From positions 1-43,358 of the IMG/VR virus record IMGVR_UViG_3300042564_000583: DNA of 43,358 nt; one strand, written 5' to 3'. This document shows positions 25,893-43,358 of the stretch, one piece after another. Under the pieces are notes generated by a model. The model ran no database searches and had not been told where the DNA came from. It saw only the letters and a program-made list of their open reading frames with translations. Each line of letters begins with the position of its first letter. The first letter of the stretch is position 1. This DNA is from a virus. A program made the translations under genes and the position numbers.

Positions 25893-26252
25893 ATGAGAAT
25901 AAGCACTACTATAAAGTTGCCAACATACAGTTGTAAGCTCGTTGTAGTAGTGGTGGAAAGTGTATCCGCATCTGCAGAAAAGCTTTACAAGAAGTATAAA
26001 ATAAAAGATGATTTTGGAGGAGAGGCTGAAGGGGCATTGATAATGCCAGACATAGATAACTATTATTTGTTACTAGGTGATCAGTTCTTAACTCATAATA
26101 CAATCGCTCATGAACTCTATCATGCTGTAGTTAGAATAACAGAAGATAGAGATATAACAGATGAAGAAGCACAAGCTTGGTTGGTTGGGCATCTTTCTGG
26201 AGAGATATATAAATTTTTAGATAAGAAGAAGTTAGTAATTAAACATGGCTGA
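25893..26252 (+). CDS. small zincin-like metallopeptidase (HExxH)
   Basis: This 119-residue protein has H73-E74-L75-Y76-H77 in HNTIAHELYHAVV, the HExxH zinc-binding motif. Acidic residues at 91-92 (DEEAQAWLVGHL), 14-15 residues on, are suitable as the third ligand of a gluzincin. The size and layout resemble minimal phage zincins. It lies between the probable ring gene and the muzzle gene and overlaps the latter by eight bases, so it is co-translated with virion proteins and may process one of them. That role is inference. Confidence 0.65.
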   Translation: MRISTTIKLPTYSCKLVVVVVESVSASAEKLYKKYKIKDDFGGEAEGALIMPDIDNYYLLLGDQFLTHNTIAHELYHAVVRITEDRDITDEEAQAWLVGHLSGEIYKFLDKKKLVIKHG

Positions 26253-29200
26253 ACAAGAATCACAAAATCCGGGAGCTGTTACCAACACCTTTAGCAAAGG
26301 TATGGTGAAAGATTACAATGAGACCTTTGTAGGTGAGGGATTGTGGACGCATGCTCGTAATGTAGTTAACAACTCACATGATGGTCAGATTGGAGTTCTT
26401 GGCAATGAACCAGCTAACTTATATTGTGTAACTCTTCCATACACTTTGATTGGTACTGTACACTATGGTGGTGATCAATGGGTAGTTTTTACAACTGATG
26501 ACCTTAACTCTGAGATTGGAATATTTGATGAGTCTGCTTGTTCATATACCAAAGTTATAAATGATCCATGTTTAAACTTTAAACGTAGTAATCTTATTAC
26601 AGGTGTTTGTCGTGAAAGATACGACTGTGAAAACTTATTATATTGGGATGACGGTTTAAATCCAACAAGAGTTTTAAACATTAATGACATTCCTTATGTA
26701 TGCACTACTCCATCAACTACTCAACCTTTTAAATATAAATTGATTGGAGCCACATGTAGTGCTAAAACTGCAACTACTACTCTTACCTATACAGATATTA
26801 ACTTTAACTCACAAACTAAGCATTTAGTAGATGGGGAAGTTTTTGAGTTTTTATCATTTGATAAACCACAATCAATGCAGATTACTAGTCGTAGTTGCAC
26901 TGATGAACCATGTTATACTCATACTATTAGTGTTACTATTCCTACTGCAGGACGTACTACATATGAACTATGTCTTACTGATAAGCAAGCTTACGATCAA
27001 CAGTTTCCTGATGGATCTCTTAATCCATTAACTGTCATTGCTAAGAAGACAGATAACAATGGTAATGCTATTCCTTGTGGTTGTGTTTCTCAAAGTACAA
27101 CAACTGCGTCTTATGTTTTAAATGATGTTACAAATTTAGGATCAAACACATCTGATACACTTACTTGCAAAACTCCTATTTGTTCTGATCGTTTAGATTG
27201 TGAAAAAATTAGATTGGCTTCTTTAGTAAAACAACCTTGTCTTTCCTTACAAAAAGGAAAGGGAGCCGGTACACTAGCAAATGGTTCTTATCAAGTAGCA
27301 TTGGCATACACTGTAGACAATGTTAGGGTTACTGATTATTTTGGTTTAAGTGAAGTTCAGTCTTTATTTAGTCATCAAAATTTATCTAGTTCTTTAGAAG
27401 TTAAGATTATAGATGTTGATAGAAACTTTGATGAGTTTGAACTAGTTGTAATATCTAATATTAATCAACAAACTGTAGCTAAAAGTTTTGGTTACTACTC
27501 TACTAGTCAAGGTGTAATTTATATTAGCAGTGTAGGACCAGAGTTAATTACTGTACCTCTTTCTTTTATTGTTTTAAGAACTGAACCAATTGAGAAATCA
27601 GACGCTATGTATTCAGTTAATAACTATTTACTACGTGTTGGTGTATATAGTAAGTTTAGATTTAACTATCAAAAACAAGCTAATGCTATTAAATCAAAGT
27701 GGGTAGCTGTACAGTATCCAGCAAATTACTATGTAAAAGGAGGAAACAATCCTTCATTTATGAGAGATGAGCAATATGCATTTTTTATAAGATGGGTGTA
27801 TAATACAGGTGAGCGTTCAGATTCTTACCACATCCCTGGTAGAGAAGCAAAATCTTTAGAAACTTCTATAGTAGGTGGAGAAGATGCTTATGAAATTGCA
27901 GATGGAATTTCTGTAGAACGTTGGCATGTGCAAAATACCGCTACTGTAGATTCAATAACTACAAGTACTTTATCAGATGGTGGTAAAATTATTGCATCTG
28001 GTCAAATGGGTTATTGGGAATCTACAGAGCTTTATCCTGATAACAATCCACAAGTATGGGGTTCATTATGTGGTAAACATATCAAGCATCATAAATTTCC
28101 TGATGCTACTGTAGATCCCGTTATTAATCATTATAACTCTGATGGTCAAAATATTGTAGTACTTGGTGTACAGTTTGAAAACATAACCCATCCATTAGAT
28201 ATAAATGGAAAAACTATATCGTCTATTGTGGGGTATGAAATACTTAGAGGAAGTAGAGAAGGTAACAAAACTATTGTAGCTACTGGTATACTTAATAACA
28301 TGCGTGAGTATGATGTTCAAGAAGGTGCTACAGGTATTAAAGGTCTTTATCAGAACTATCCATACAATGACCTTTCTCCAGATTATTATTTGACTTCTAA
28401 TGAATCTAATATAAATCAAGGTTCTTTTGAAAACCGTAAAGATAATCCATTAAGAAATTATAGAAAAGATATATTTTCTTTTCATAGTCCTGATACTACT
28501 TTTACACAACCTTTTTTATCTGCACAAGAACTTAAGATATACGGAGAAGCTTATGGTAATTCACAAGGATTGTTTGAGATACCATGGAGACATCCTAAAA
28601 ATAAGTTTATTGGTAAAGATGTAGAGTTTGTAAACAAAGCTTTACAGATAATTAGAATTATTAATAGTATATCTACTGAGCTTCCTCCTGGTGCTGTAGA
28701 GTTTATAGGTAACAATAAAGTTCCTGTTAAGCTTAATATTACTCCTGTAAAACCGGAACCAAAGAAAACAGTATTAGGATCAGTTCTTGGAGGTATTACA
28801 AATATTATCGCTCCTGGTGCTGGGTCAGTAGTATCTGGAATAGTTGATGGTATAGCTTATGGTATTAATGCAGTTAGTTATGCTGCACAACTGCTTGTAG
28901 TAAAATATATACATTCTGAAACTACTCATGCTCAGATACAAATCTTAATTTATGGGTTGATACCTAAGCGTCAATATGCTTTACAATATAACTCTCATGG
29001 ATTCTTTAATAAGTTTTCTCCTGCTAAAGACGGAAACAGAAGAAGAAAGATTGATGATAGTTTATATATAAAAGGAAACGTACAGAGTTTTAATAATGGT
29101 TTTAGAGTTAATAACTTATACAGAAGTAATTTTGTAATAATTAAACTTGCTGATGGTAAGTTTATTGCTAATCCAGATAATGTAGATGACAGTAGAGTAT

Positions 29201-31281
29201 TAATTAGTGATGTAAACACAGAACCTAAAAAATCATTCCAACGTAAAATATCTTCTCAATACGGAGCTTTAAAAATATCTTTACCAGCACAATACGGTCA
29301 GTTAGAGTCTGTTAAACAAATTCCAATTTCTAATTGTGTAGGTAAAACTAATGCTGCATCTGGAGCTAAGTTTACATCTGATATTATATTTGGTGGTGAT
29401 GTTTATATTAATAAGTTTACTGAAAAGAACACAATGCCTTTCTTTAATGATTGGATGATAGACTTTCCAGATGAAACAGCTTATGATTATAGAAACTACA
29501 TAAATGTGCCTTTTCCTAGGTACTGGATGAATACTGCTGAAGCAGAATATAAACTATTGCAAAGTTCAGCTAAAGAACATCATCACTTAGATAAAAGTGT
29601 AAGTAGATTCTTTTATATCCATCAAGGATATATGTATTTATTTAACTCTGGTGTAAGAGAGTTTTTTGTTGAGTCTGAAGTTAACCTAGCTTATCGTGAT
29701 TGGGAAGATGAAACATCTAAGCGTCACTATGATAGTAGTTCATTTACTGATCTAAGTTTAATCTTTAGAAGTGATATAATTAAAAGTGGTAATTATTATA
29801 AGTATGATTATTCTTTAAGTTTGTCTAAACTATATAATAATTTTATATCTTGGGGTAATCTTTTACCAAGAACATATGATCCAATAACTTATTCTAGTTG
29901 CTACACATACAGACCAAATAGAGTAATTTATTCTTTACCACAACAAGATGAAGTGAGTAAAGATAACTGGAGATTATTTTTAGCTAATAACTATTCAGAT
30001 TTTGGATCTAAAGTTTCTAGTGTAAAATCAGTAAACTCAAGTGGTGCATTATTTATGATGGCTACTCAAAGCCCAATTCAGTTTTTGGGAGTAGATCAAC
30101 TTCAGACAGATGCAGGTACTAAAATTACTATTGGTGATGGAGGATTGTTTAGTCAACCATTACAAAACTTAGTTAACTCTGACTCTTCTTATGAGTATGG
30201 ATCTAACCAGGGTAGATTTTGTTCAGTTGGTACAAACTATGGTGTGTTTTGGATAAGTCAAAACCAAGGTAAGGTATTTCAGTTTGCTGGACAACTAAGT
30301 GAGATATCTCGTAACGGTATGAAGTGGTGGTTTGCTAAGTATTTACCTAGTGAACTTCTTAAAGCATTTCCAGATTATCCTTTATATGATAATCAAGTTG
30401 CCGGTGTTGGAGTTCAGATGATTTATGATAACACCCATGAGATCATATACATTACTAAGAAGGACTATAAACCTAAGTTTAGTGATTTACTATATGATGA
30501 TAAAGGTTTTTACAGAGTAATTTCTGGTCAAAAAACTTATTATACGTTTAAGAGTGAGGCTTTTGAAGAGGCATCATGGACAATGAGTTATGATCCTAAA
30601 AACAAAATGTGGTTATCATTTCATGATTGGATACCTACTTTTTTAATTCCAGGTAGATCTCATTTCATGTCTGTTAACATGAACACTGTATGGAAGCATA
30701 ATCAACGTTGTGATAAGTTTGCTAATTTCTATAATAAAGATTATCCTTTTGAAGTTGAGTTTGTATCTTCTACTGGTCAAACATCTACTACTATAAGAAA
30801 CTTAGAATACATGTTAGAAACATACAAGTATCATAATGATTGTAGAGATAAGTTTCATGTGTTAGACGAGAATTTTGATCAAGCAATTGTTTATAACTCT
30901 GAGCAGATTTCAGGACTTTTAGAACTTTCTATTAAAAGTAAAGTGAACCCTGTAGACTTGTTATCTTACCCACAGGTAGGTACTTCTTCTATAAAGATTA
31001 ACTATGCTAAAGAAGAAAACAAGTATAGGTTTAATCAATTTTGGGATGTAACTAAAAACCGTGGAGAGTTTCAAGGGGTAAATGTTCCTATGTTTAATAC
31101 TAAAGCTAATGGTTATCAGTTTGAAATTAATCCTCAATATGTTAACTATCAAAAATCACCATTAGAACGTAAGAAGTTTAGACATAATATAAACAGAGTG
31201 CTTCTTAGAAAGCTTGAGAGTAATGATTTAAAAATGATTTTTAAAATATCTAATCAGAAAATACAACAATCTTTTAGATAA
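26245..31281 (+). CDS. giant tail stabilisation/muzzle-like protein
   Basis: This 1678-residue protein's N-terminus (NTFSKGMVKDYNETFVGEGL, WTHARNVVNN, QIGVLGNEPANLYC) and the first 500 residues of beta-rich repeats fit P22 gp10-like stabilisation proteins. Their crAss-like relatives form the muzzle at the end of the tail. A long Gly/Ala/Val stretch at about residues 842-887 (LGSVLGGITNIIAPGAGSVV, then INAVSYAAQLLVV) is unusually hydrophobic for a soluble particle protein. The second half returns to beta-rich, Tyr/Asn-rich sequence and ends in a short basic helix. Position directly after the ring genes supports the call. Cysteines are frequent in the first 330 residues. Confidence 0.7.
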   Translation: MAEQESQNPGAVTNTFSKGMVKDYNETFVGEGLWTHARNVVNNSHDGQIGVLGNEPANLYCVTLPYTLIGTVHYGGDQWVVFTTDDLNSEIGIFDESACSYTKVINDPCLNFKRSNLITGVCRERYDCENLLYWDDGLNPTRVLNINDIPYVCTTPSTTQPFKYKLIGATCSAKTATTTLTYTDINFNSQTKHLVDGEVFEFLSFDKPQSMQITSRSCTDEPCYTHTISVTIPTAGRTTYELCLTDKQAYDQQFPDGSLNPLTVIAKKTDNNGNAIPCGCVSQSTTTASYVLNDVTNLGSNTSDTLTCKTPICSDRLDCEKIRLASLVKQPCLSLQKGKGAGTLANGSYQVALAYTVDNVRVTDYFGLSEVQSLFSHQNLSSSLEVKIIDVDRNFDEFELVVISNINQQTVAKSFGYYSTSQGVIYISSVGPELITVPLSFIVLRTEPIEKSDAMYSVNNYLLRVGVYSKFRFNYQKQANAIKSKWVAVQYPANYYVKGGNNPSFMRDEQYAFFIRWVYNTGERSDSYHIPGREAKSLETSIVGGEDAYEIADGISVERWHVQNTATVDSITTSTLSDGGKIIASGQMGYWESTELYPDNNPQVWGSLCGKHIKHHKFPDATVDPVINHYNSDGQNIVVLGVQFENITHPLDINGKTISSIVGYEILRGSREGNKTIVATGILNNMREYDVQEGATGIKGLYQNYPYNDLSPDYYLTSNESNINQGSFENRKDNPLRNYRKDIFSFHSPDTTFTQPFLSAQELKIYGEAYGNSQGLFEIPWRHPKNKFIGKDVEFVNKALQIIRIINSISTELPPGAVEFIGNNKVPVKLNITPVKPEPKKTVLGSVLGGITNIIAPGAGSVVSGIVDGIAYGINAVSYAAQLLVVKYIHSETTHAQIQILIYGLIPKRQYALQYNSHGFFNKFSPAKDGNRRRKIDDSLYIKGNVQSFNNGFRVNNLYRSNFVIIKLADGKFIANPDNVDDSRVLISDVNTEPKKSFQRKISSQYGALKISLPAQYGQLESVKQIPISNCVGKTNAASGAKFTSDIIFGGDVYINKFTEKNTMPFFNDWMIDFPDETAYDYRNYINVPFPRYWMNTAEAEYKLLQSSAKEHHHLDKSVSRFFYIHQGYMYLFNSGVREFFVESEVNLAYRDWEDETSKRHYDSSSFTDLSLIFRSDIIKSGNYYKYDYSLSLSKLYNNFISWGNLLPRTYDPITYSSCYTYRPNRVIYSLPQQDEVSKDNWRLFLANNYSDFGSKVSSVKSVNSSGALFMMATQSPIQFLGVDQLQTDAGTKITIGDGGLFSQPLQNLVNSDSSYEYGSNQGRFCSVGTNYGVFWISQNQGKVFQFAGQLSEISRNGMKWWFAKYLPSELLKAFPDYPLYDNQVAGVGVQMIYDNTHEIIYITKKDYKPKFSDLLYDDKGFYRVISGQKTYYTFKSEAFEEASWTMSYDPKNKMWLSFHDWIPTFLIPGRSHFMSVNMNTVWKHNQRCDKFANFYNKDYPFEVEFVSSTGQTSTTIRNLEYMLETYKYHNDCRDKFHVLDENFDQAIVYNSEQISGLLELSIKSKVNPVDLLSYPQVGTSSIKINYAKEENKYRFNQFWDVTKNRGEFQGVNVPMFNTKANGYQFEINPQYVNYQKSPLERKKFRHNINRVLLRKLESNDLKMIFKISNQKIQQSFR

Positions 31282-31286
31282 AAAGT

Positions 31287-34200
31287 ATGAATAAGCTATT
31301 GCAACATATTATGAATGCTGGTGATGTAGATCACAAGATGCTTCCTGGATTGCAGAAAATGCAAAAAGGTGGTAGTGGTAAAGTATTACCTAAATCTCCT
31401 GCTGATCCTAGAGTATTCCCTAAAGAAACTTTAGAGAATAGGCAAAAGGTATACAGAACAGTTCGTCCTACAGTATATAGTGATGTTAAAAACTACGCAA
31501 GATTTTTGTTTAATAATGATAGAGATGAGTGGGATGATGCTCGTAGTGAGGAAGCTTTTAGAATGTATTTAGGTTTAGAAGACAAACCTAAATATTTTAA
31601 ACCATCTAAATATAAACCAACTATTAATCCTGATCCTAATGGATATTACTATAGTGCTGATGAGCAATTAGAACAAGATATATTTAATAGTTTTAAAGAT
31701 AAAGTTAAACCTGGTCAAATATTAGCTACAGATGAATACTTTGTAGATAGTAAATTTCCTGGTAATCCAGATGCTTTTTGGGAAGGTGATAAGCAAATGG
31801 TTAAGTTTGAACCTAATGATGAAAATCCATTTATAGGTAGACCTATGGTCAGTCGTGCTAGAGCGTTAGGTGAGTTTGTTGTTAGTAGAGGTAAAGATGA
31901 TCAAGGTGAATATCTTTCATATGCTGATCAGTATGATTTTCCACCAATACTACAAAATCAAATGCAGGGGCAACCATATAAAGTATATGGAAGAGTATAC
32001 TATCCTAAAGCTAAACCTGTTAAAATGTATGGTGGAGAAAATAATCCATACAAAGTTTTTGCAGAAGAAGGTGTTGAATATAAAGGACCAAGTATAGTAG
32101 ATTATTTAGCCACTAAAGGTTACTCAGGTAAAAAAGCATTTAGAAAAGATCTTGCTGAAAAATATAATGTAGAAGATTATAATTATTCTGCTGCTAAAAA
32201 TACAGAACTACTTAATAAGTTACGTGCAGATGATGCTTTATTACAAGAATATGATCAGCAAATTGCACCTATTCCGGTAGAAAGAATGATGGAAATGGAG
32301 CGTCAAGCTAGAACTGCTAGGGAAACTGCTCCTGTTACAGCTGCTCCTACATCTAACCAAAGACCAGCTAATCCTGCTCCTGTTTATAACTATAGTCCAG
32401 AGTTTCAGAATATGAGGATACCTCAGACTAAAGTTAATACATCACTTCAGCCTAAAGTAATATATGATAACAAGTTTTCTTTAAGTCCGCAAATGGTTGT
32501 GCAAGTACCGTCTGTTTCAAGCAAACCTACTCCAACTACAACACCTAATCAACCTAGACCTACTGTTACTAATACTACTGCTGTAAAACCACAGACAGTT
32601 ATTCCTCAATATAATCCTTTTTCTTTTTCACAATATGCAGATCAAAAACCTTTAGGACCAGTTGTTTTAAATAAACCAGCCCCTGTAAATAGACCTGTTT
32701 CTACAGAAGCACAAAAAGTTGGGATACTTGGTATTTCTAAACCAATTGGTAATAAGTTTATGTTTGCTAATGAGTATCCTTATTCATTTAATAAACAAAA
32801 ATCTGAGTATTTACCACAGGTTGTTCCTGCTAACAAACCTGTTGTTAAAACTGAAAAGTATACTACTAAATCTGAAGTAGAAGAAAAACCATGGTATGAA
32901 GAAGTGGTTGATGATACTTCTAATTTTTTCTCAAGAGCTTATGATTCTTTTGCTGAGTCTGTAGATAAAAGTCCTCTTGATTTTAGAGGTATGAACTTTG
33001 GTTCAACAGGCATCTCTCCGCAAGGAGCTAAAGAAATGACAAGAGATCTTACAAAAAATATATTATCTTTTGTATCTCCAGATCTTGCTCAAAAGTTTGA
33101 AAACAAAATGAGCAGGCAAGATGCTATTAACAATCCTAAAGAACGTAAAAGTTCTCTTGATCCATCTAAGATTAAATTTGATCCTATTGTTGTTACTGGT
33201 GATACTATTCCAGATACAGATAGACGCTATCATATTCCAGAGCTAATGGATCTTGACTATATGCGTTTTGGTGTTCGTAACCGTGGAGACTACAAAGAGA
33301 TTGAAACTGAAGGTGCACCTATTACAACTTTTGAACCTTTTCAAAGTTCTAAACAGTATTTTGCTAAAACCAAAGATCCTGCTAATGCTACTTATATTGG
33401 AGTTGCACCTGATGGAAAAATTAAAGTTGGAGGCAAAGATCAGTTTCAAGATCAAGAATATCAGATTACTAAAACTTTTGGAAATAAAGTTGTAGACTTT
33501 AATAGAGACGATAAAGGTGTTATTAAAAAAGTCGCATCTAACCCTAATGCTTCTAGAGAAACTCTTTCCCCTTCTGTAAAAGTAATGGGGGATGATGGTA
33601 AGATTATAGATGGTAAGCTTAGTTTGTTATTACCTCGTGAAGGTAATCAAGAAGAGTCTTTTGATCTTGTTACTGGTGGACGTTACATTTTTCAAACTCC
33701 TGATGGTAAAACAAAGCTTGTAAGTGGATCATTAAATAATATTGAGACTGCTTTCTATAACATGAAAAAGAACAATCCATATGTTAATGTAATAACATTG
33801 GATAATGGTTCTTATGCTCGTGGTATTCGTACTTATGATCAAAAGCTAACTAAGCAAGATCTTAAAGGATATGATAATCAAAACACTGGTGGTGGAAACA
33901 TTGCTTATATTCTTCCTGGAGCGTCAACAAGATATGAGTCTAAGTTTTCAGACTTTGAAAAAGAAGCTAAAGCTAGACTTCAAGCAAAGTATCCTGGTAA
34001 GAAAGTTAGTGTTGGTTATCAAGACACTGGTCTTTATGATAAGACTGGAGGTCGTGATATTGAAACTCAAGCTGCTATACAACAAAAAGGAAACTCTCAA
34101 ACTCCAGTATCTCTTCACAACTTTGGTGCTGCTAGAGATTATATGCTTTATGTAGATGGTAAACCTATAGATGCCGGTGCAAATAAAGACTTGTATGCTG

Positions 34201-35384
34201 ATATACTATGGACTAGTGCAGCTAAAACTGGACTACATCATGTAGGAACTAAAGAAGATAACTGGGACCCTACTCATATAGGACTGGCTAAAGAAGGACA
34301 GAAGACTGCTTTTGATGAATTGTATTCTAAGTATCCAGATATTTTTGCTAACCCTAACTTTGTTAAAAGTTTAAATTTTGTTAACAAGAATAAATCTAAT
34401 CCTAATTACAGAGAGTATTATGAGTTGTTAAATAATATTCAACCGTTTACAGGACAGCCTCGTACTACTGAAGCTATGAGAACCACAGCAGCTAGAAAAC
34501 AAGAAGGTGGGCCTATATTAGATCCTCGTGGTCAATGGGCTTACCCTGGTAAGGTTACTCGTATACCTAGTCCTAATATAACTATGCAAGGTGTTCCTTA
34601 TCCTGTGTTTGGTGTAGGATCTAATGGTCAAAAACAAATGATGTATCCAGAACAAGAGTATAACTTTGGTGGTGCATCTTATGTAGATGAGTATCCAATG
34701 ATGAAGAATGGCGGTGGACTTCTTAGTAAGACTGTTTCTTGTTCTAATTGTGGATGGTCATGGAAAGCTGTAGAAGGTGGACATGATCCACTTAACTGTC
34801 ATAAATGTGGTGGTACTATAAAAATGCAAGATGGAGGAGAAGAAACTTATGGTACTTACAACTTACCAGAAGTGGTGGTTACTCCTACATCTGATATTGA
34901 TAAAAATAGTTATTCTTCTTCAAGAGGATCTATTAACCCAAGATACACAAATACTTTATGGGATAAAGCAGGTGGAGCATATAGAAACTTTATGCATAGT
35001 AGACCTATAGAAAATATTAAAGATGTAGCTCCATTAATTAAATTATTTGATCCAACAGGCGTTACAAACTGGCCAGATTTGTATAATGCAATGACTAAAG
35101 GCTCATTAGAAGATGTAACTACAGAAGGTTTTGCATCATTGCCTTTAATAGGAAAAGCTGGTAAATATATATCTATAGCAGACAAAGCTCTTATAGGTAA
35201 AAAAACAGGAGTACCTTTATTTAAAACATTAAGAGTAACAGCAAGTGGTAAGAGTTTTTTAAATGATGCTAAAAAAACTGTTGATAAAAAACAAAATGGT
35301 GGATTTACTACCTATTTTCCTAGTGAGCATGGTAAACAACCATTAGAAAAGAAACACAATATTAAAGTAACTTATAAAAAATAA
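31287..35384 (+). CDS. large virion protein with M15-like peptidase domain and zinc ribbon
   Basis: This 1365-residue protein has a low-complexity Pro/Thr/Asn-rich linker at about 350-500, typical of extended virion proteins. Residues about 890-1010 carry an M15 peptidase pattern: H944-x6-D951 in SLHNFGAARD, then E990, W993 and H997 in EDNWDPTHIGL. These fit the two His, one Asp and catalytic Glu of D-Ala-D-Ala/L-Ala-D-Glu peptidases. A zinc ribbon follows (C1152, C1155, C1171, C1174; CSNCGW and CHKCGG). Several xxGG motifs flank these (QKGG, QEGG, NFGG, KNGGG, QDGG, QNGG). It is probably packaged and cuts peptide cross-links of peptidoglycan during entry. Confidence 0.75.
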   Translation: MNKLLQHIMNAGDVDHKMLPGLQKMQKGGSGKVLPKSPADPRVFPKETLENRQKVYRTVRPTVYSDVKNYARFLFNNDRDEWDDARSEEAFRMYLGLEDKPKYFKPSKYKPTINPDPNGYYYSADEQLEQDIFNSFKDKVKPGQILATDEYFVDSKFPGNPDAFWEGDKQMVKFEPNDENPFIGRPMVSRARALGEFVVSRGKDDQGEYLSYADQYDFPPILQNQMQGQPYKVYGRVYYPKAKPVKMYGGENNPYKVFAEEGVEYKGPSIVDYLATKGYSGKKAFRKDLAEKYNVEDYNYSAAKNTELLNKLRADDALLQEYDQQIAPIPVERMMEMERQARTARETAPVTAAPTSNQRPANPAPVYNYSPEFQNMRIPQTKVNTSLQPKVIYDNKFSLSPQMVVQVPSVSSKPTPTTTPNQPRPTVTNTTAVKPQTVIPQYNPFSFSQYADQKPLGPVVLNKPAPVNRPVSTEAQKVGILGISKPIGNKFMFANEYPYSFNKQKSEYLPQVVPANKPVVKTEKYTTKSEVEEKPWYEEVVDDTSNFFSRAYDSFAESVDKSPLDFRGMNFGSTGISPQGAKEMTRDLTKNILSFVSPDLAQKFENKMSRQDAINNPKERKSSLDPSKIKFDPIVVTGDTIPDTDRRYHIPELMDLDYMRFGVRNRGDYKEIETEGAPITTFEPFQSSKQYFAKTKDPANATYIGVAPDGKIKVGGKDQFQDQEYQITKTFGNKVVDFNRDDKGVIKKVASNPNASRETLSPSVKVMGDDGKIIDGKLSLLLPREGNQEESFDLVTGGRYIFQTPDGKTKLVSGSLNNIETAFYNMKKNNPYVNVITLDNGSYARGIRTYDQKLTKQDLKGYDNQNTGGGNIAYILPGASTRYESKFSDFEKEAKARLQAKYPGKKVSVGYQDTGLYDKTGGRDIETQAAIQQKGNSQTPVSLHNFGAARDYMLYVDGKPIDAGANKDLYADILWTSAAKTGLHHVGTKEDNWDPTHIGLAKEGQKTAFDELYSKYPDIFANPNFVKSLNFVNKNKSNPNYREYYELLNNIQPFTGQPRTTEAMRTTAARKQEGGPILDPRGQWAYPGKVTRIPSPNITMQGVPYPVFGVGSNGQKQMMYPEQEYNFGGASYVDEYPMMKNGGGLLSKTVSCSNCGWSWKAVEGGHDPLNCHKCGGTIKMQDGGEETYGTYNLPEVVVTPTSDIDKNSYSSSRGSINPRYTNTLWDKAGGAYRNFMHSRPIENIKDVAPLIKLFDPTGVTNWPDLYNAMTKGSLEDVTTEGFASLPLIGKAGKYISIADKALIGKKTGVPLFKTLRVTASGKSFLNDAKKTVDKKQNGGFTTYFPSEHGKQPLEKKHNIKVTYKK

Positions 35385-35388
35385 AGAT

Positions 35389-36732
35389 ATGTATTATCAA
35401 CAAGGTGGTCAACAGGATCAGATTATGATGGTTATTCAGCAGTTTGCTCAAATGAACCAAGTTAATCCTGAACAGATTTTACAGCAGCTACAAAAGATGT
35501 CTGCAGAAGAACAGCAAAAAGCTTTTGAACAAATGATTCAAGCTGTACAACAAGGTGCTTCTCAGCAGCAACAACAACAACCTGATATGGCTCAAGCTGC
35601 TATGGCTTACGGTGGATATACAACAGGCATGTTTGGAGGTGGTGGAGAAATGATCCGTAGAGCTGATGGTTCTTATTCTAAAAGAGGATTATGGGATAAC
35701 ATCCGTGCTAATAAAGGATCTGGTAAGAAACCAACTCCGGAAATGTTAAAACAAGAGAAAAAAATTCGTAACCAAGAAGCAGCTTATGGTGGTGTTTTTG
35801 AAAACGGTGGCACTAACAATGCTGGGTTTGATGCATTACCTGACTACGTGCAAGCTAAAATTTTAAGAAACATGGGTTATGGTGGTTATATGACAGGAAT
35901 GTTTGCTGAAGGTGGTGAACCAAATGGTGGTATGGCACTAGGTCAAATGTCAGCTGTTGCTGATAAGATGAATAAACTACGTCAGTTTGTTTCTTCTGAA
36001 CAAAATTTAGATCCATGGATTGCTTCTAAGTTAGCTGTAATTGATGATAGTGTTAATAGTATTTCTGATTACATGATGTATAATCCTGAAGCTCAAGAAG
36101 AAGAAGAGATGGAAGAAGAAGGACTCATGCCAGAAATGGGTGGGGGTGGTTACACTGTAACTAGAAGTAGTGATCGTAAAGGTAAAACACACAAAGTGAC
36201 AGGTCCTGGTGGGGTTGTTAAATACTTTGGTGATTCTAAACTAGGTCAACACCCTAAAGATCCTAAAAGAAAAGCAGCTTTTTATGCTCGTCATAAAAAG
36301 AACTTAGCTAACAATCCTTTTTTTAGAGCATTTGCTAGAAAGACTTGGAAAGAAGGTGGCTCTACTTTTAGTGGTAATGCATGGTATGAGAATGGTGGTA
36401 CTAATAATGAAGGCTTTAAAGCCTTACCTGAGTTTGTTCAACAACAGATATTGTCTAATATGGCATACGGTGGTATACAATTAGATCCTGCTAAAGCTGG
36501 TACATTTAAAGCTCAGGCTACTCGGATGAACATGGGAGTACAAGAAGCTGCTTCAGCAATACTTAATGCACCAGAAGGAAGATATAGTCCTGCTATGAGG
36601 AAAAAAGCTAACTTTGCTAAGAATTTTGCTAAGCAAATGGGTGGTCCGGTAGAAGGTGATGTGTTAGATGTTACTCCAGAAGAATTGCAAATGTTAAAAC
36701 AAGGTGGTTATAATTTTGAAATTATTGACTAA
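35389..36732 (+). CDS. Gln-rich virion protein with duplicated GGTNN module and basic domain
   Basis: This 447-residue protein begins Gln-rich (YYQQGGQQDQIMMV, with a Q6 run near 65). A 29-residue module starting ENGGTNN(A/E)GF(D/K)ALP and ending (M)xYGG occurs twice (bases 35800-35886 and 36388-36474). Between them is a basic domain at 255-320 with RKGKTHKVTGPGG, KYFGD, DPKRKAAFYARHKKN and FRAFARKTW, which may bind nucleic acid. An acidic run (EEEEMEEEG) precedes it. At least eight xxGG motifs are present. The C-terminus, TPEELQMLKQGGYNFEIID, resembles that of the next protein. It overlaps that gene by one base (TAATG). Confidence 0.65.
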   Translation: MYYQQGGQQDQIMMVIQQFAQMNQVNPEQILQQLQKMSAEEQQKAFEQMIQAVQQGASQQQQQQPDMAQAAMAYGGYTTGMFGGGGEMIRRADGSYSKRGLWDNIRANKGSGKKPTPEMLKQEKKIRNQEAAYGGVFENGGTNNAGFDALPDYVQAKILRNMGYGGYMTGMFAEGGEPNGGMALGQMSAVADKMNKLRQFVSSEQNLDPWIASKLAVIDDSVNSISDYMMYNPEAQEEEEMEEEGLMPEMGGGGYTVTRSSDRKGKTHKVTGPGGVVKYFGDSKLGQHPKDPKRKAAFYARHKKNLANNPFFRAFARKTWKEGGSTFSGNAWYENGGTNNEGFKALPEFVQQQILSNMAYGGIQLDPAKAGTFKAQATRMNMGVQEAASAILNAPEGRYSPAMRKKANFAKNFAKQMGGPVEGDVLDVTPEELQMLKQGGYNFEIID

Positions 36733-38540
36733 TGAAAATACGTATCACAGGAAAAGGTTTGCCTAAAGCTCAATGGGCTGGTCAACAGTCTTTTAAAAAT
36801 TCTGTTTCTATTAATGGTGTAACTTATTTTGAGGGAGAACCTGGTTTTGAACAAGCTAAAAAAGAAGCTGAACAAATGAAACAGGAAAACTCTGCTTTTA
36901 GTAATTATATTAATTCTCGCATTAGACCAGGTATGACTAATAGAGCAAATGATTTAAAATCATTTATACCTCGTATTGGACCTGGTATAGAAAATGCTGT
37001 GAGTGATGTTAAAAACTTTGCTACTAATAAGTTTCCAAAACTGACTTTTAAACCACTTGCTCAAGCACCTATTCAACCTACTGGTACTACTCCAATAGTA
37101 AATACTACACCTGCTGCAACTACTCAATTAGAAGCTCCTAAAAGATTTTGGCATTCTGAATGGGACGATCAAGGATTTGATACAGATCCTGAAGGAGAGT
37201 TTTATCAAGGAAATAACCAAGCTGCAGCAGCTACTGCTCAATCCAATACATCTGCAAATCCACTTAGTTGGTATAGTAAAAACATTGGTCAACCTGTAGA
37301 AAAAGCTTTTCAAGGTTTAGATAAAAATATAGGATATGCAAACTTTGCTACTCAACTAGTTAACAGTAATAAGAAAAAAAAAGATTTTGATAAGTTTATG
37401 AGACGTCAAACTTCTACAGATTCTTTATTTCCTGAAGTAACAAGTGATATGTCTGGTAGTCGTGGAGACTATGTAGTTAGCGGAAGTAGATTTGGTGAGT
37501 TTAGACCTGATGAATATGTTGTAAACAAAGGCATGTACACTGGTCAGTTCTTACCAAGAATGGCACAGTATGGCGGAGGAATAATACCTGATGAGCTAAG
37601 CATGCCTATAGATCAAATTCAAATGTCTCAAGTACTAGAAAACCCTATTACTACAGGAGAAGCTTTTACTAGTCCAGCTCCTGCTTCGGCAAGTCCTGTA
37701 TCATCAGTTGGTGTTAACAAACTTGCTGAACAAACATGGGAAGAAGTTTCTTCTCAGTTTGAAGGTGTTAAGCATCTAGGTATATGGGGAGATAAAAGAC
37801 ACCAAAAAACTAAAAGTGATCACAACAGTGGAGATGCTTTAGATATTGGTATAAAAGATCCTGGTCAAGGTGAACAAATTGCTCAAAAACTTATTACAGA
37901 AGCTCAAGATAAAAATATTAAATATATCATTTGGAATAAGCAGATATGGAATCCTTCTGTATCTAATTCTTGGAGACCATATAGTGGAGATAACCCTCAC
38001 ACTTCACATGTACATGTAAGTTTTAATAGAGCTGCTGATAAAAGTCAAAATGGAGAAATTGCTTTAACTCATAACAATCCGCTAAACATACATCATAGTG
38101 AGTTTACTTCTAATTATGGTGGGGTAAAAGGTGATAAGGATGCTGGTGGTTTTGTGAGTAAGTTTCCAGATTTTGAAACAGGAATCAAAGCAGCTAAAGA
38201 TCTTTTATTTGGTCCGGCTTATTCTAACCTTACTATATCTCAAGCTAGAAATAAATGGGTTAGTGGTGATCAAAATACGTCTAACAACTCAACTTCAGAT
38301 ATTGTAAAAACAATGGGAGTTGATAAAGTATTGAAAGATCTTAGTCCTACAGAACGTGAAAAGTTAATAAAACAGTTTGCTAAATGGGAAGGTAAACAAG
38401 CATATACTAAACTAAATGATATGAAGATATATGCAGATGGTGGGACCACAATGCAATATGAATCTGGAGGTGTTTATGAACTATCAGAGGATGAAATTAA
38501 GAATATACTTTCTTCAGGTGGTGACGTAGAATTTTTATAA
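36732..38540 (+). CDS. virion peptidoglycan hydrolase: M15-like peptidase plus NNPxNI lysozyme-like domain
   Basis: This 602-residue protein has two domains after a Pro/Thr-rich N-terminal half. Residues about 330-430 carry SDHNSGDALDIG with H364-x6-D371, then PHTSHVHVSF with H423, H426 and H428, an M15-like zinc peptidase pattern. Residues about 445-560 start with NNPLNI (448-453) and continue with GGFVSKFPDFETGIKAAKDL, typical of phage lysozyme/transglycosylase-like domains. It ends YELSEDEIKNILSSGGDVEFL, a tail shared with the upstream protein. Two lytic activities in one protein, beside a second M15-like protein, suggest a virion-borne cell-wall opener. It starts in a TAATG overlap. Confidence 0.75.
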   Translation: MKIRITGKGLPKAQWAGQQSFKNSVSINGVTYFEGEPGFEQAKKEAEQMKQENSAFSNYINSRIRPGMTNRANDLKSFIPRIGPGIENAVSDVKNFATNKFPKLTFKPLAQAPIQPTGTTPIVNTTPAATTQLEAPKRFWHSEWDDQGFDTDPEGEFYQGNNQAAAATAQSNTSANPLSWYSKNIGQPVEKAFQGLDKNIGYANFATQLVNSNKKKKDFDKFMRRQTSTDSLFPEVTSDMSGSRGDYVVSGSRFGEFRPDEYVVNKGMYTGQFLPRMAQYGGGIIPDELSMPIDQIQMSQVLENPITTGEAFTSPAPASASPVSSVGVNKLAEQTWEEVSSQFEGVKHLGIWGDKRHQKTKSDHNSGDALDIGIKDPGQGEQIAQKLITEAQDKNIKYIIWNKQIWNPSVSNSWRPYSGDNPHTSHVHVSFNRAADKSQNGEIALTHNNPLNIHHSEFTSNYGGVKGDKDAGGFVSKFPDFETGIKAAKDLLFGPAYSNLTISQARNKWVSGDQNTSNNSTSDIVKTMGVDKVLKDLSPTEREKLIKQFAKWEGKQAYTKLNDMKIYADGGTTMQYESGGVYELSEDEIKNILSSGGDVEFL

Positions 38541-38560
38541 ATTTGTAATATATATATAAC

Positions 38561-40507
38561 ATGAAAATGTATAAAGTAAGAATTAAAAAAGCACCAGACT
38601 CTATGGCGTATGGTGGACAAAAGAATTATGGATTAGATTTAAACCAAAGAGGTAGTTATGCTGACATGACTGATAATCCATACGATTCTGTGTCTAACAC
38701 TTTACAATCTGTTGATAGGGAGGATGCTAATATTGAAGCTGAATTAGGTGAAACTGCATATGGTGATTTTGACAATGATGGTCAAAATGAACATATGAAG
38801 ATTGGTGGTAAAAGACATACACAAGGTGGTACACCACTAAATGTTCCTGAAGGTACATTTATTTATTCTGATACTAAGAAGCTAAGAATTGGTGGTAGTG
38901 TTCTTGGTAATTTTGGTAAGTCACCAGATACTAAGAAGAAGTATACACCTGCTCAGTTAGCTAAACAATATGATGTTAACAAGTATAAAGCTATACTTGA
39001 TGATCCATATGCTGATAAGATGTCTAAAGATACAGCAACAATGATGGTTCAAAACTTTGAAAAGAAACTAGGTGGTTTAGCTTTGGTACAAGAAAGTATG
39101 AAAGGTTTTCCTCAAGGTATTCCTGATGTAGCTAAGTCTGTATTACCTGAAGGCATGGGAGAACAATTGGCTCAGATGGGAGGTTTTTATGGGGATGATA
39201 CTTACTCTTACATGCGTGCCGGTGGTACTGGTGGTGATCCTGTTCCTAAAAAAGTTGATAAGTCTGAAATTGCTAAGTATGAAAAGGAAGGTTATCAACG
39301 TGTAGGTAATAGCAATGTATGGAAAAAAGAAGGAAAGACTATAGAAGCAAAAGATCCTATCAAAGGTGCTCCAGGAATACAGCCTGTTACTAGAACTACT
39401 CCAGGTAAGACATATGTACCAAATGAAAATGCTTGGTGGAAAAGTCTTACTCCTGAACAAAAAGCTGCTCATAATAAAAAAGTTCGTGAAAAAATTGCTA
39501 CTGATCCAGAGTATCAACCTAAAACAGAAATTGTTACTCCTGGAACTCAAGGAACACCCGACACTTGTCCAGAAGGATATGCTTTAAACCCTGCTACAGG
39601 AAAGTGTGAAAAGATTACACCATTTATTGATCAAATAACATATGAAGAAAGTATAAATACTGGTGATGGTGGTGGAGGAACTGAAGAAGTTTTTCCAAAA
39701 GGAAGACGCCCTTATTTTGGTAAACAGTTTATGGTTCCTCCTAAGCGTTATACTCCTTATGCTGCTCCTCTTAATGCTATGATTCCAGAGCCTACGTTCT
39801 ACGATCCTAATAGAGAGTTAGCTGAAGGTGCTTCACAACGTAACATGATGGCTGCCTATATGCAGCAAATGGACCCTCAGCAGTTTTCTGCTAGAGCTAA
39901 CGCATTAAATGCACAAGGGGCTGAGCAAGCTGCCAATACTATTGGTAAATATCAGAATATGAATGTTGGTGTAGCTAATCAGTTTAGCCCTTTGCAAACT
40001 GATATTATGAATAAGGTCATGGCTTACAGAGCTGATGCTGCTGATAAATTAGTGTTTAACGCTGCACAAGAAGACAAAGCTTATCGTAATGCTATGAGAA
40101 TGGATCTAAGAAATAGAGATTTGTATGATATGAATGAGTACGATAATGCTACAAAACGTACTATGCTCAATCAAACTAATCCATATTACTCTTTAGAAGA
40201 TGGTCCACAAGGTGCTTACATTAACTGGAAAGATAAAAATAACTGGATGTCTTCTATTACAGGTCAACAACAACAAGCTTCTTCTAATGATTATGCAGCA
40301 GCTGAAGCAGAAGCTAGAAGACTTGAAAATCAAGGTGTAAGTAAAGAAGTTGCATTAGCTATGCTAAGAGGTAAGTTTCCAAATGTATTTGGATTAGGAT
40401 CATCTAGTAGAGCAACCAATAACGCAATCAATGCTCAATATTTAAACTCAGGCAGAGCTCCTATGGCTCAAAGTGCATACCCATTTGGGTATGATGATGG
40501 ACAATAG
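38561..40507 (+). CDS. large virion protein with GGKRHTQGG module
   Basis: This 648-residue protein has near the N-terminus (about 65-110) DFDNDGQNEH, which looks like a calcium-loop, then MKIGGKRHTQGGTPLNVPEG and FIYSDTKKLRIGG. I have seen this combination in Bacteroidota phage virion proteins. The middle is charged and linker-like, with PEGYALNPATGKCEKI around 341. The last 250 residues are helical and Asn/Ala/Gln-rich (AAYMQQMDPQQFSARANALN, YNAMRMDLRNRDLYDMNEYD-like). xxGG motifs occur at AYGG, KIGG, RIGG, QMGG and RAGG. There is no enzyme motif. It probably belongs with the flanking internal proteins. Confidence 0.65.
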   Translation: MKMYKVRIKKAPDSMAYGGQKNYGLDLNQRGSYADMTDNPYDSVSNTLQSVDREDANIEAELGETAYGDFDNDGQNEHMKIGGKRHTQGGTPLNVPEGTFIYSDTKKLRIGGSVLGNFGKSPDTKKKYTPAQLAKQYDVNKYKAILDDPYADKMSKDTATMMVQNFEKKLGGLALVQESMKGFPQGIPDVAKSVLPEGMGEQLAQMGGFYGDDTYSYMRAGGTGGDPVPKKVDKSEIAKYEKEGYQRVGNSNVWKKEGKTIEAKDPIKGAPGIQPVTRTTPGKTYVPNENAWWKSLTPEQKAAHNKKVREKIATDPEYQPKTEIVTPGTQGTPDTCPEGYALNPATGKCEKITPFIDQITYEESINTGDGGGGTEEVFPKGRRPYFGKQFMVPPKRYTPYAAPLNAMIPEPTFYDPNRELAEGASQRNMMAAYMQQMDPQQFSARANALNAQGAEQAANTIGKYQNMNVGVANQFSPLQTDIMNKVMAYRADAADKLVFNAAQEDKAYRNAMRMDLRNRDLYDMNEYDNATKRTMLNQTNPYYSLEDGPQGAYINWKDKNNWMSSITGQQQQASSNDYAAAEAEARRLENQGVSKEVALAMLRGKFPNVFGLGSSSRATNNAINAQYLNSGRAPMAQSAYPFGYDDGQ

Positions 40508-40573: not shown

Positions 40574-43358
40574 ATGGCACAATACCTTCCTTATATACCA
40601 GAGACTATTCCTGAACCGGCTTTATATAAACCGGACTTTAATTTCTTTGATAAAATGCTTCAGAGAAAGCAGTCTATGTTTGAACAAGGTGCAAGCAGAG
40701 TTAGATCTGCTTATACTTCTGTATTAAACACACCTCTTTCAAATAAGAATAACATACCTCTTAGAGATCAATACATTAAAGATGCTCAAGAAAAGTTAAC
40801 TAAGTTAGCTTCTTCTGATTTGTCTCTTATGGAAAACGTGAGTGCTGCTGAAGGAATCTATGCTCCTTTTTGGCAAGACAAGTTTATAGTACAAGATGCT
40901 GCTATGACTAAAGCTTATCAAGCTGAAATGCAAAAATATACTGCTTGGAAAGACTCACCTAAAGCCGAAGAGCGTGAAAAGTATAACAGCATTGGTATGT
41001 TGTACCTTCAAAATGGATTAAGTAAGTTACAAAATGCTGAAAGAACTCCAGAAGCTTTTGGTTCTGTAGAAATGCGTAAAGCTGAGCCATTTACAAATAT
41101 TGAATCTTACTTAGATGGAATTGCATCTAAAGAAAAATTACAAGTTAAGTATGATGATCCTAATGGACCATACTTAATTGAAACAGTAAACGGGGAACGT
41201 TCTAAACAAAAGTATGCTACATGGGCAGCTTCTAGAATTGGTAATAACTTTCAAGGACAGTTTGATATAACAGGTACTGTAGAGAATGAAGAACGTGCTA
41301 AAATATTAAAACGTAACAATCCTAACATTACTGATCAAGAAGTTCAAACAATAATTGCTAAAGACGTTGTTTCAGAACTTAATAAAGGCTATACTAAAAG
41401 AAATCAAGAGGTAGATGTTGAAATTGCTAGAATAGATGGACTACTTACATCTATTGGACAGACAGGTGGACCACAAAACAAAGCTACATTTGATAGATTA
41501 GTATCAGAACGTGCTGAACTTGTTGGTAGAAAATCATCTATTGCTGAAGAGTATAAGTATTTTGATAAAGATAAAGATCAGGTATTTCAAGCTGTAGCTA
41601 ATGCACCTAAAAATTATTTTAGTGTACTAGCTAAACAACGTCTTATTAACAACTGGGCTACTGGTACTGCTAGTATAGATCAAAAGCTTGTAAAAGAAAA
41701 TGCTGCTTGGACTTCTGCTCAAAATCTTGAACTTAACAAAGCTAAGTTTAACTTAGACGTAATGAAAGTAGGATATGATCGTGAGCAACAATTATGGGAA
41801 AGAGCTAATCCTAAAGCTGCAACAACTACAGCAAATACTTCTCTTAAAGATGCTAATGGTAATGTTATAACTACAAGTGATGTACCAGGTGTTGATGAAA
41901 GTGGTTCATTGATGTATGCTGGTAAGTCTGGTATTGATATTACAAAAACTGCAGAAACAGCTTATGATGTCTTTAATAAAAATCAGCAACAAAGTTTTTC
42001 TGATGCTCATAGTTTAATATTTGATCAACGTGGTATTTTGGGTTTTGCTACTAAACTAGGATTATCTCAAATGGAAATATCACAAGTAGCTAGTGCTCTT
42101 AAAAAAGAAATTTCTAGTGGTTATACTTATGATTATACTAAAGAAGAAGCAGCTGCTAGTACTAAACTAAGTAATGCTTTGTTAAATAGTCAAGGAGTTA
42201 AGACTAAAGGTATTACAAAAATAACTGGACCAGGTACTATGAGAAATGCTTTGATAGCATATGCTTCAGATTATTTATCTGAACGTAGTAAAGTTGCTGC
42301 AGATGGTTCTGATATTCCATTAAGTAATGATGAGTTTGAAGCATTGATGAGATATTCAACTGCTGTTGCAAAACTAGAAAATTATACAGCTAATGAAAAT
42401 AATAGACAGAAACTATTAGAAGAAAATTTAGGTAACAATCCTGAGTTTGCTTCTGTAATTACAAAAGATGCAAATGGAAAAGCAGAGTTAATATCAATAA
42501 GTACTTTGGCTAAAGAAATGCCAACTCTTGAATTATTTAATAAAGCTGATAGATCTAAAAAAACTTTATCAAAAGAAGATGTGGCAAAATACTATATGCA
42601 AAATGGTATTGGTCAGACAAATATGGGTGAGTTAATTTTAGAGGATGGTGTTTATTACATTGATAAAGTTAATGGAAAAAAATCATCAACTTTATTTGGA
42701 GCTGTAGATAATACTTCAGTTTTATGGAACGATTTATATAATGATACTTTAGTTCCAAAATACGGAACACCTGAAGAGTTTGGTAAAAAAATGAAAGAGG
42801 CAAACATGTCTGTAGTACCAGATCTTTTAATGTATAAGAATTTAACTGGTCAACAAGGGTCTTTGTTTGCATTAATTCCTAAAGGAAATAAAACAATGAC
42901 ATCTGGAGATAACGCCACTGCTATTATATATCAAGCTTCTCAAGTAGGAAACTCAGAAGAAGTTACTGATGGTGATGGAAAACCCTTAGACGCTGATAAA
43001 ATTACTGCTATAAGAACGCTTTTACAAAGTGAAAAAAACATTGAAGATTACGTATCAGGTCAATATATACCACAAGGCATAAATGGTAAGCGTACAGTAA
43101 GAGTAACTCTTAGCAAACCTATATCTTCAGAAACAAAAGAAGAAATTGGTAATGTAAGTTTAGGAGACATAGGTACTACTTTTAATTTTATTATGAAAGA
43201 TGATACTTCTGGAACCTATCTTGATCAGTTACCTAACAATACTGGTTATCAAATTTATGATGCTGTTACAAGAGGTCAAGAAATAAAATCTGATCCAGTA
43301 CTTGATGCTGCAGGATTTAGTTATGTCATTACACCTAACGTTACTGGTGTAGATACTA
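40574..43358 (+). CDS. large internal (cargo/ejection-type) protein, cut by the window edge
   Basis: The frame is open from ATG at 40574 to the end, 928 codons with no stop. The N-terminus (AQYLPYIPETIPEPALYKPD, FNFFDKMLQRKQSMFEQG, then RDQYIKDAQEKLTKLASSDL) is one I recall from internal virion proteins of Bacteroidota phages. The chain is long, helical and charged, with coiled-coil-like stretches around 260-400 (QEVDVEIARIDGLL, FDRLVSERAELVGRK). No enzymatic motif is seen in the visible part. By position it would match the first cargo protein after the muzzle region of crAss-like phages, ahead of the virion RNA polymerase genes. That is inference, and the genes to the right are outside the window. 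Confidence 0.7.
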   Translation, partial: MAQYLPYIPETIPEPALYKPDFNFFDKMLQRKQSMFEQGASRVRSAYTSVLNTPLSNKNNIPLRDQYIKDAQEKLTKLASSDLSLMENVSAAEGIYAPFWQDKFIVQDAAMTKAYQAEMQKYTAWKDSPKAEEREKYNSIGMLYLQNGLSKLQNAERTPEAFGSVEMRKAEPFTNIESYLDGIASKEKLQVKYDDPNGPYLIETVNGERSKQKYATWAASRIGNNFQGQFDITGTVENEERAKILKRNNPNITDQEVQTIIAKDVVSELNKGYTKRNQEVDVEIARIDGLLTSIGQTGGPQNKATFDRLVSERAELVGRKSSIAEEYKYFDKDKDQVFQAVANAPKNYFSVLAKQRLINNWATGTASIDQKLVKENAAWTSAQNLELNKAKFNLDVMKVGYDREQQLWERANPKAATTTANTSLKDANGNVITTSDVPGVDESGSLMYAGKSGIDITKTAETAYDVFNKNQQQSFSDAHSLIFDQRGILGFATKLGLSQMEISQVASALKKEISSGYTYDYTKEEAAASTKLSNALLNSQGVKTKGITKITGPGTMRNALIAYASDYLSERSKVAADGSDIPLSNDEFEALMRYSTAVAKLENYTANENNRQKLLEENLGNNPEFASVITKDANGKAELISISTLAKEMPTLELFNKADRSKKTLSKEDVAKYYMQNGIGQTNMGELILEDGVYYIDKVNGKKSSTLFGAVDNTSVLWNDLYNDTLVPKYGTPEEFGKKMKEANMSVVPDLLMYKNLTGQQGSLFALIPKGNKTMTSGDNATAIIYQASQVGNSEEVTDGDGKPLDADKITAIRTLLQSEKNIEDYVSGQYIPQGINGKRTVRVTLSKPISSETKEEIGNVSLGDIGTTFNFIMKDDTSGTYLDQLPNNTGYQIYDAVTRGQEIKSDPVLDAAGFSYVITPNVTGVDT

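Follow-up and report, generated by a model that had tools for sequence, protein, structure and literature searches.

The proteases of adenovirus and ASFV carry out a GG-specific maturation of virion proteins, and double-glycine leader peptides are processed by C39 peptidases. The locus described here resembles the adenovirus and ASFV substrates in having a short motif that ends in GG, a large hydrophobic residue some positions earlier and several sites per protein, but the spacing of the large residue differs and no member of that protease family was found here, the control for that search being silent. With double-glycine leaders it has only the GG in common, since its tags are internal and several per protein instead of forming a single N-terminal leader, and C39 peptidases were found in 0 of 20 relatives. 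The prohead protease of phage SPN3US processes ejected proteins at the motif AXE, with cuts that remove N-terminal propeptides (PMC10052503). These, too, are proteins that are packaged and ejected and that contain short motifs several times over; unlike theirs, the tag reported here is xxGG and is internal throughout.

In phi-crAss001, residues 214-245 of the cargo protein C1 (gp45) line the tail barrel and residues 425-552 sit on the portal, RNA-polymerase-associated proteins and C2 were identified as virion cargo by mass spectrometry, and cargo passes constrictions of <50 Å in partly unfolded form (PMC10172136). Gel bands of the phi-crAss001 virion range from 15 to >300 kDa, the band of gp45 not being specified in the text (PMC6235969). 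Crassvirales rank with the commonest viruses of the human gut, and what follows bears on their packing and ejection of large proteins.

We analysed a 43-kb virus record (43,358 nucleotides, referred to throughout as the window) in which the ORF list places a muzzle gene at 26245-31281, followed by ORFs of 1365, 447, 602 and 648 residues. The cluster formed by these last four carries a recurrent five-residue tag, refined here to [M/F/Y/W/H/K]-x-x-G-G. The features of the region are as follows.

25893-26252, + strand: 119-aa protein immediately preceding the muzzle gene; its HExxH zincin motif reads HELYH, and the third conserved Glu lies in DEEAQAW.
26245-31281, + strand: muzzle protein, 1678 aa, tag count 0 (control); PHROG virion structural matches, 70 relatives.
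31287-35384, + strand: modular protein of 1365 aa, tagged at residues 28, 249, 1074, 1128, 1142, 1183 and 1338.
35389-36732, + strand: most tag-dense protein, 447 aa; 15 GG runs, tags separating modules.
36142-36366, + strand: module c, YTVTRSSDRKGKTHKV...FARKTW, flanked by the tags MGGGG and WKEGG; 52 loci, flank pairs, alignment.
36451-36651, + strand: module K, GTFKAQATRMNMGVQEAAS...ANFAKNFA, bounded by the tags MAYGG and KQMGG; 51 loci, C1 homology.
36732-38540, + strand: 602-aa protein with few tags; LysM-protein-like/peptidase-like stretch at residues 360-432, C-terminal module ESGGVYELSEDEIKNILSSGGDVEFL.
38561-40507, + strand: likely C1 (gp45) counterpart of 648 aa, with a portal-binding-like domain in its N-terminal part (~45-195) and a long helix at 439-539; tags at 18, 207 and 221.
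40574-43357, + strand: start of a tag-free block with a single GG run, truncated by the window end after 928 aa.

Judged by its relatives, the window belongs to a phage of Crassvirales type. The capsid gene itself lies outside the window, and membership was read from a close 131-kb relative (G009, muzzle 80 % identical) that carries the Crassvirus major capsid protein PF23898 (E 2.4e-30) together with the ring families CrAss_Ring_2 (2.1e-21) and CrAss_Ring_1 (8.2e-12). A muzzle search yielded 70 related loci, and four long relatives of 124-131 kb were compared. In all four, the tag-rich ORFs fall between the muzzle and very large ORFs in which the tag occurs at chance level only; the block starting at 40574 leads, in relatives, into such very large ORFs of RNA-polymerase type.

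The first-pass annotation had listed xxGG-like motifs in four consecutive proteins, and all of those listed are present in the ORFs at 31287-35384, 35389-36732, 36732-38540 and 38561-40507. Together the four contain twice as many GG runs as composition-preserving shuffles predict (44 against 22.1 +/- 3.9) and six times as many [MK]xxGG sites (18 against 3.0 +/- 1.7), neither count being reached in any of 2000 shuffles. The recurrence holds for the cluster as a whole but is weak in the 602-residue protein on its own (6 GG runs, 4.5 expected). The motif had also been described as rarer in the muzzle protein, which agrees with the 7 GG runs (6.4 expected) and 0 tags (0.5 expected) counted there; fibre-like ORFs below 16 kb (2 tags, 2.2 expected) and other structural ORFs (0, 1.3 expected) are equally unremarkable. 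After dereplication, ORFs downstream of the muzzle in the relatives hold 363 [MK]xxGG sites where 106 +/- 10 are expected, with no excess upstream (21 vs 21.8) or in the muzzle (11 vs 17.8). The motif is thus specific to this cargo cluster.

Position -3 relative to the GG matters most: in dereplicated contexts M is enriched 3.8-fold, F 2.2-fold and Y 2.0-fold, while L, E and D are depleted. Position -2 ranks next, with a preference for Q, K or A, and preferences after the GG are weaker. The GG and the large residue at -3 are conserved while adjoining residues vary, and this flanking preference is absent around single glycines of the same proteins. Because the Gly codons at tags vary synonymously and are not fixed, the signal lies in the protein; a DNA-level signal was rejected on the same grounds. 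We also rejected a simple helix C-cap: a predicted helix ends ≤5 aa before the GG at only 6 of 15 GG sites in the 447-aa protein and 1 of 9 in the 648-aa protein, and the depletion of L and E at -3 contradicts it as well.

Cargo ORFs of the relatives have segments of 30-200 residues in common, arranged in differing orders. The ends of these shared segments lie ≤4 residues from a GG in 40.3 % of cases, compared with 11.5 % under random placement, and among the 120 commonest dipeptides GG ranks highest at segment ends (ratio 3.49, median 0.82). Since a conserved GG at an edge counts as near an end by construction, the statistic speaks for GG at module edges but says nothing of the way in which the modules moved. 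The 447-aa protein is composed of modules b, d (twice), MALGQ, c, K and a C-terminal module, and its orthologues have cleanly lost or gained whole modules between tags. Module c has a GG directly before it and another two residues after its TW in all 32 distinct flank pairs, 30 of them with M or F at the upstream -3 position (our count from the printed flanks), and the sequence past the GG differs; as the loci are related, the 32 pairs do not represent 32 independent events. Module K stands alone in two short ORFs, where the GG is absent.

Confidence in the structure models is low (mean pLDDT 54 and 68). They place nearly all tags of the 447-aa protein in segments with pLDDT <50 and the tags at 18, 207, 221 and 224 of the 648-aa protein in low-confidence linkers. 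GG at residues 82, 89, 111 and 171 of the 648-aa protein and 274 of the 447-aa protein are probably not tags, because they lie inside or beside predicted folded elements. The earlier suggestion that the motifs often sit at domain borders is therefore borne out for most sites, by segment ends, module flanks and models alike, but not for some of those it had listed (KIGG, RIGG), which fall inside a fold. The joint is real and is conserved at the seams of modules exchanged between cargo ORFs.

The 648-aa protein is the likely counterpart of C1, as judged by profile comparison. Aligned to Crassvirales C1, its family matches over the portal-binding domain (gp45 465-543) with an alignment-to-alignment hhalign E of 5.9e-5, and at E 0.08 when gp45 is used as a single sequence; it also matches a phi17:2 protein (E 1.9e-9) and an Fpv1 protein (E 1.5e-6). 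A Foldseek search with the 648-aa model, which is dominated by its long helix, gave no match at E <0.001 and no C1. Module K is common to the 447-aa protein and C1 of human gut Crassvirales, with 53 % identity to cr128_1 C1 (E 8e-13) and a profile match at E 1.2e-8. Like the 648-aa protein, phi-crAss001 C1 has the portal-binding-like domain, and its gene lies just after the muzzle gene; Crassvirales C1 homologues carry module K as the 447-aa protein does and show an excess of tags, at P <0.05 in 6 of 7 tested, crAss001 itself giving P 0.06. Unlike in the C1 homologues, the content in the window is distributed among four ORFs, the modules are far more numerous, and the tags are of M-type, not F-type. 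The proteins of the cluster are probably carried and injected by the virus. The published atlas mentions neither tags nor cleavage in its text (PMC10172136), and no description of the tag was found in the literature searched, where absence is no proof; the Crassvirales cargo proteins themselves are known, but their conserved joint and the module shuffling across it seem not to have been described.

The reading we favour, though with confidence somewhat short of even, is that the tag forms a joint between the small modules of crAss-like, ejection-type cargo proteins. Each cargo protein would be a string of short domains of ~20-150 aa separated by [M/F/Y/W/H/K]-x-x-G-G, the tag serving as a hinge that is anchored by a fixed side chain. 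Such a hinge could keep neighbouring beads independent, so that the chain threads through the portal and the narrow tail, and would let the gain, loss or exchange of a module leave those beside it intact. A joint is supported by the module ends near GG, the flanks of module c, the clean gain and loss of modules, the low-pLDDT linkers and the short module-K ORFs that have no GG, as well as by the partly unfolded passage of cargo through narrow constrictions (PMC10172136). The preferences at -3 and -2 point in another direction: a mere hinge needs neither M/F/Y nor Q/K/A there, which suggests recognition by something. Either way, the conserved tag defines modules and, for C1 of a cultured phage, predicts where a hinge or a cut would lie, so that the occurrence of C1 in tail as well as capsid can be put to the test.

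Recognition by a protease is the first alternative, a double-glycine cleavage site having also been proposed in the first-pass annotation. The cargo ORFs would then be polyproteins cut after GG to free small proteins before or during ejection, which we consider unlikely. The strongest preference does lie upstream of GG, as in a substrate, and the self-contained, exchangeable modules give a polyprotein-like architecture. In crAss001 C1, the tail-bound segment 214-245 and the portal-bound segment 425-552 (PMC10172136) flank FAEGG264, so that a single cut there would explain how C1 comes to lie in two compartments. On the other hand, GG434 and GG447, contained in 425-552, are uncut within ordered density, though neither has M or F at -3. 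Other phage proteins are not depleted of the tag, and avoidance of Pro following GG is not seen either. Searches of the 20 relatives returned no C39 peptidase (PF03412; control positive in 8 genomes) and no S78 prohead protease (control positive); S77 prohead protease and Ulp1/C48 (PF02902) were likewise found in 0 of 20, in searches whose controls were silent.

The one phage-encoded protease candidate seen in the window is the HExxH protein (PHROG 1365), in which H73, E74, H77 and E92 are invariant across 20 relatives; in 35 of 71 loci its gene immediately precedes the muzzle gene, and a conserved protein of this kind in that place counts in favour of cleavage. Loci that have it show stronger tags (median 5.9-fold vs 2.3-fold), a comparison that is confounded by clade and in which L049 was wrongly counted among the genomes without it. 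Several strongly tagged genomes do not have the protein, and we rejected it as the tag protease. The gene between portal and capsid was also considered and set aside, as it reads by eye as an acidic, scaffold-like protein. The more specific proposal, that an unrecognised protease cuts these polyproteins at [M/F]xxGG and frees small injected proteins, some of them common with giant and polinton-like viruses, seems doubtful to us; if true, it would explain the finding of phi-crAss001 C1 in both tail and capsid.

A second alternative is that the repeats dock onto the portal, the tail barrel, the scaffold or each other and so load these proteins, which we regard as rather improbable. Specific residues at -3 and -2 would fit such binding, as would multivalent copies in proteins related to a cargo protein known to be bound at portal and tail. 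However, tags do not make up the stretches of C1 that the published map shows bound to portal and tail, 214-245 having no GG at all, and neither the RNA-polymerase-associated ORFs nor C2 show a significant tag excess. Because these are cargo too, a general packaging signal, as proposed in the first-pass annotation, is unlikely and was not borne out. A compositional accident, or a DNA-level seam in which a repeat drives recombination, is very improbable: M, Q and G abound in these proteins and modules do move between ORFs, but composition alone is refuted by the composition-preserving shuffles, single glycines lack the preference and the GG codons are not fixed.

Several modules that lie between tags in relatives of the window phage are known from elsewhere. 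Tlr6F/DUF5754 and DUF5872 of polinton-like viruses, giant viruses and phages have been described as small separate proteins (PMC4642659, PMC12220804). In relatives, these domains occur as modules inside cargo ORFs (L021:15997-20526, L044:18146-20077 and L050:14707-19983), the Tlr6F/DUF5754 match in L044 scoring 38.3 bits against a cut-off of 27.4. Module c of the window had no significant Pfam match, PF19058 included; its hhalign comparison with the Tlr6F module is co-linear over most of the length at E 0.15, which is suggestive only, and we did not assign it to Tlr6F. A SET domain match was seen in one relative, and 21 of 69 relatives (e.g. L005, L007, L018, L050) have zincin-type HExxH motifs at varying places inside tag-bearing cargo ORFs.

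Within the 1365-aa protein, residues 265-348 form a peptidase-like region matching PHROG 2307 (L-alanyl-D-glutamate peptidase), an M15-like H-D-H pattern was noted by eye near 945-1020, and a zinc-ribbon-like CxxC pair spans residues 1152-1175. The 447-aa protein contains an internally duplicated 22-residue module, TNNxGFxALPxxVQxxILxNM (window 35797-35886 and 36385-36474), with tags flanking both sides.

Muzzle-type tails are not restricted to phages of Bacteroidota, an example being the cyanobacterial Leptolyngbya phage Lbo-JY46 (15380-20344 in L099), whose muzzle relative is 28 % identical over 81 % of the query and is followed by a similar cluster with few tags. Two adjacent cargo proteins of the window end in similar C-terminal modules, DVTPEELQMLKQGGYNFEII and ELSEDEIKNILSSGGDVEFL (36646-36729 and 38460-38537), and an ending of this kind also occurs in Lbo-JY46.
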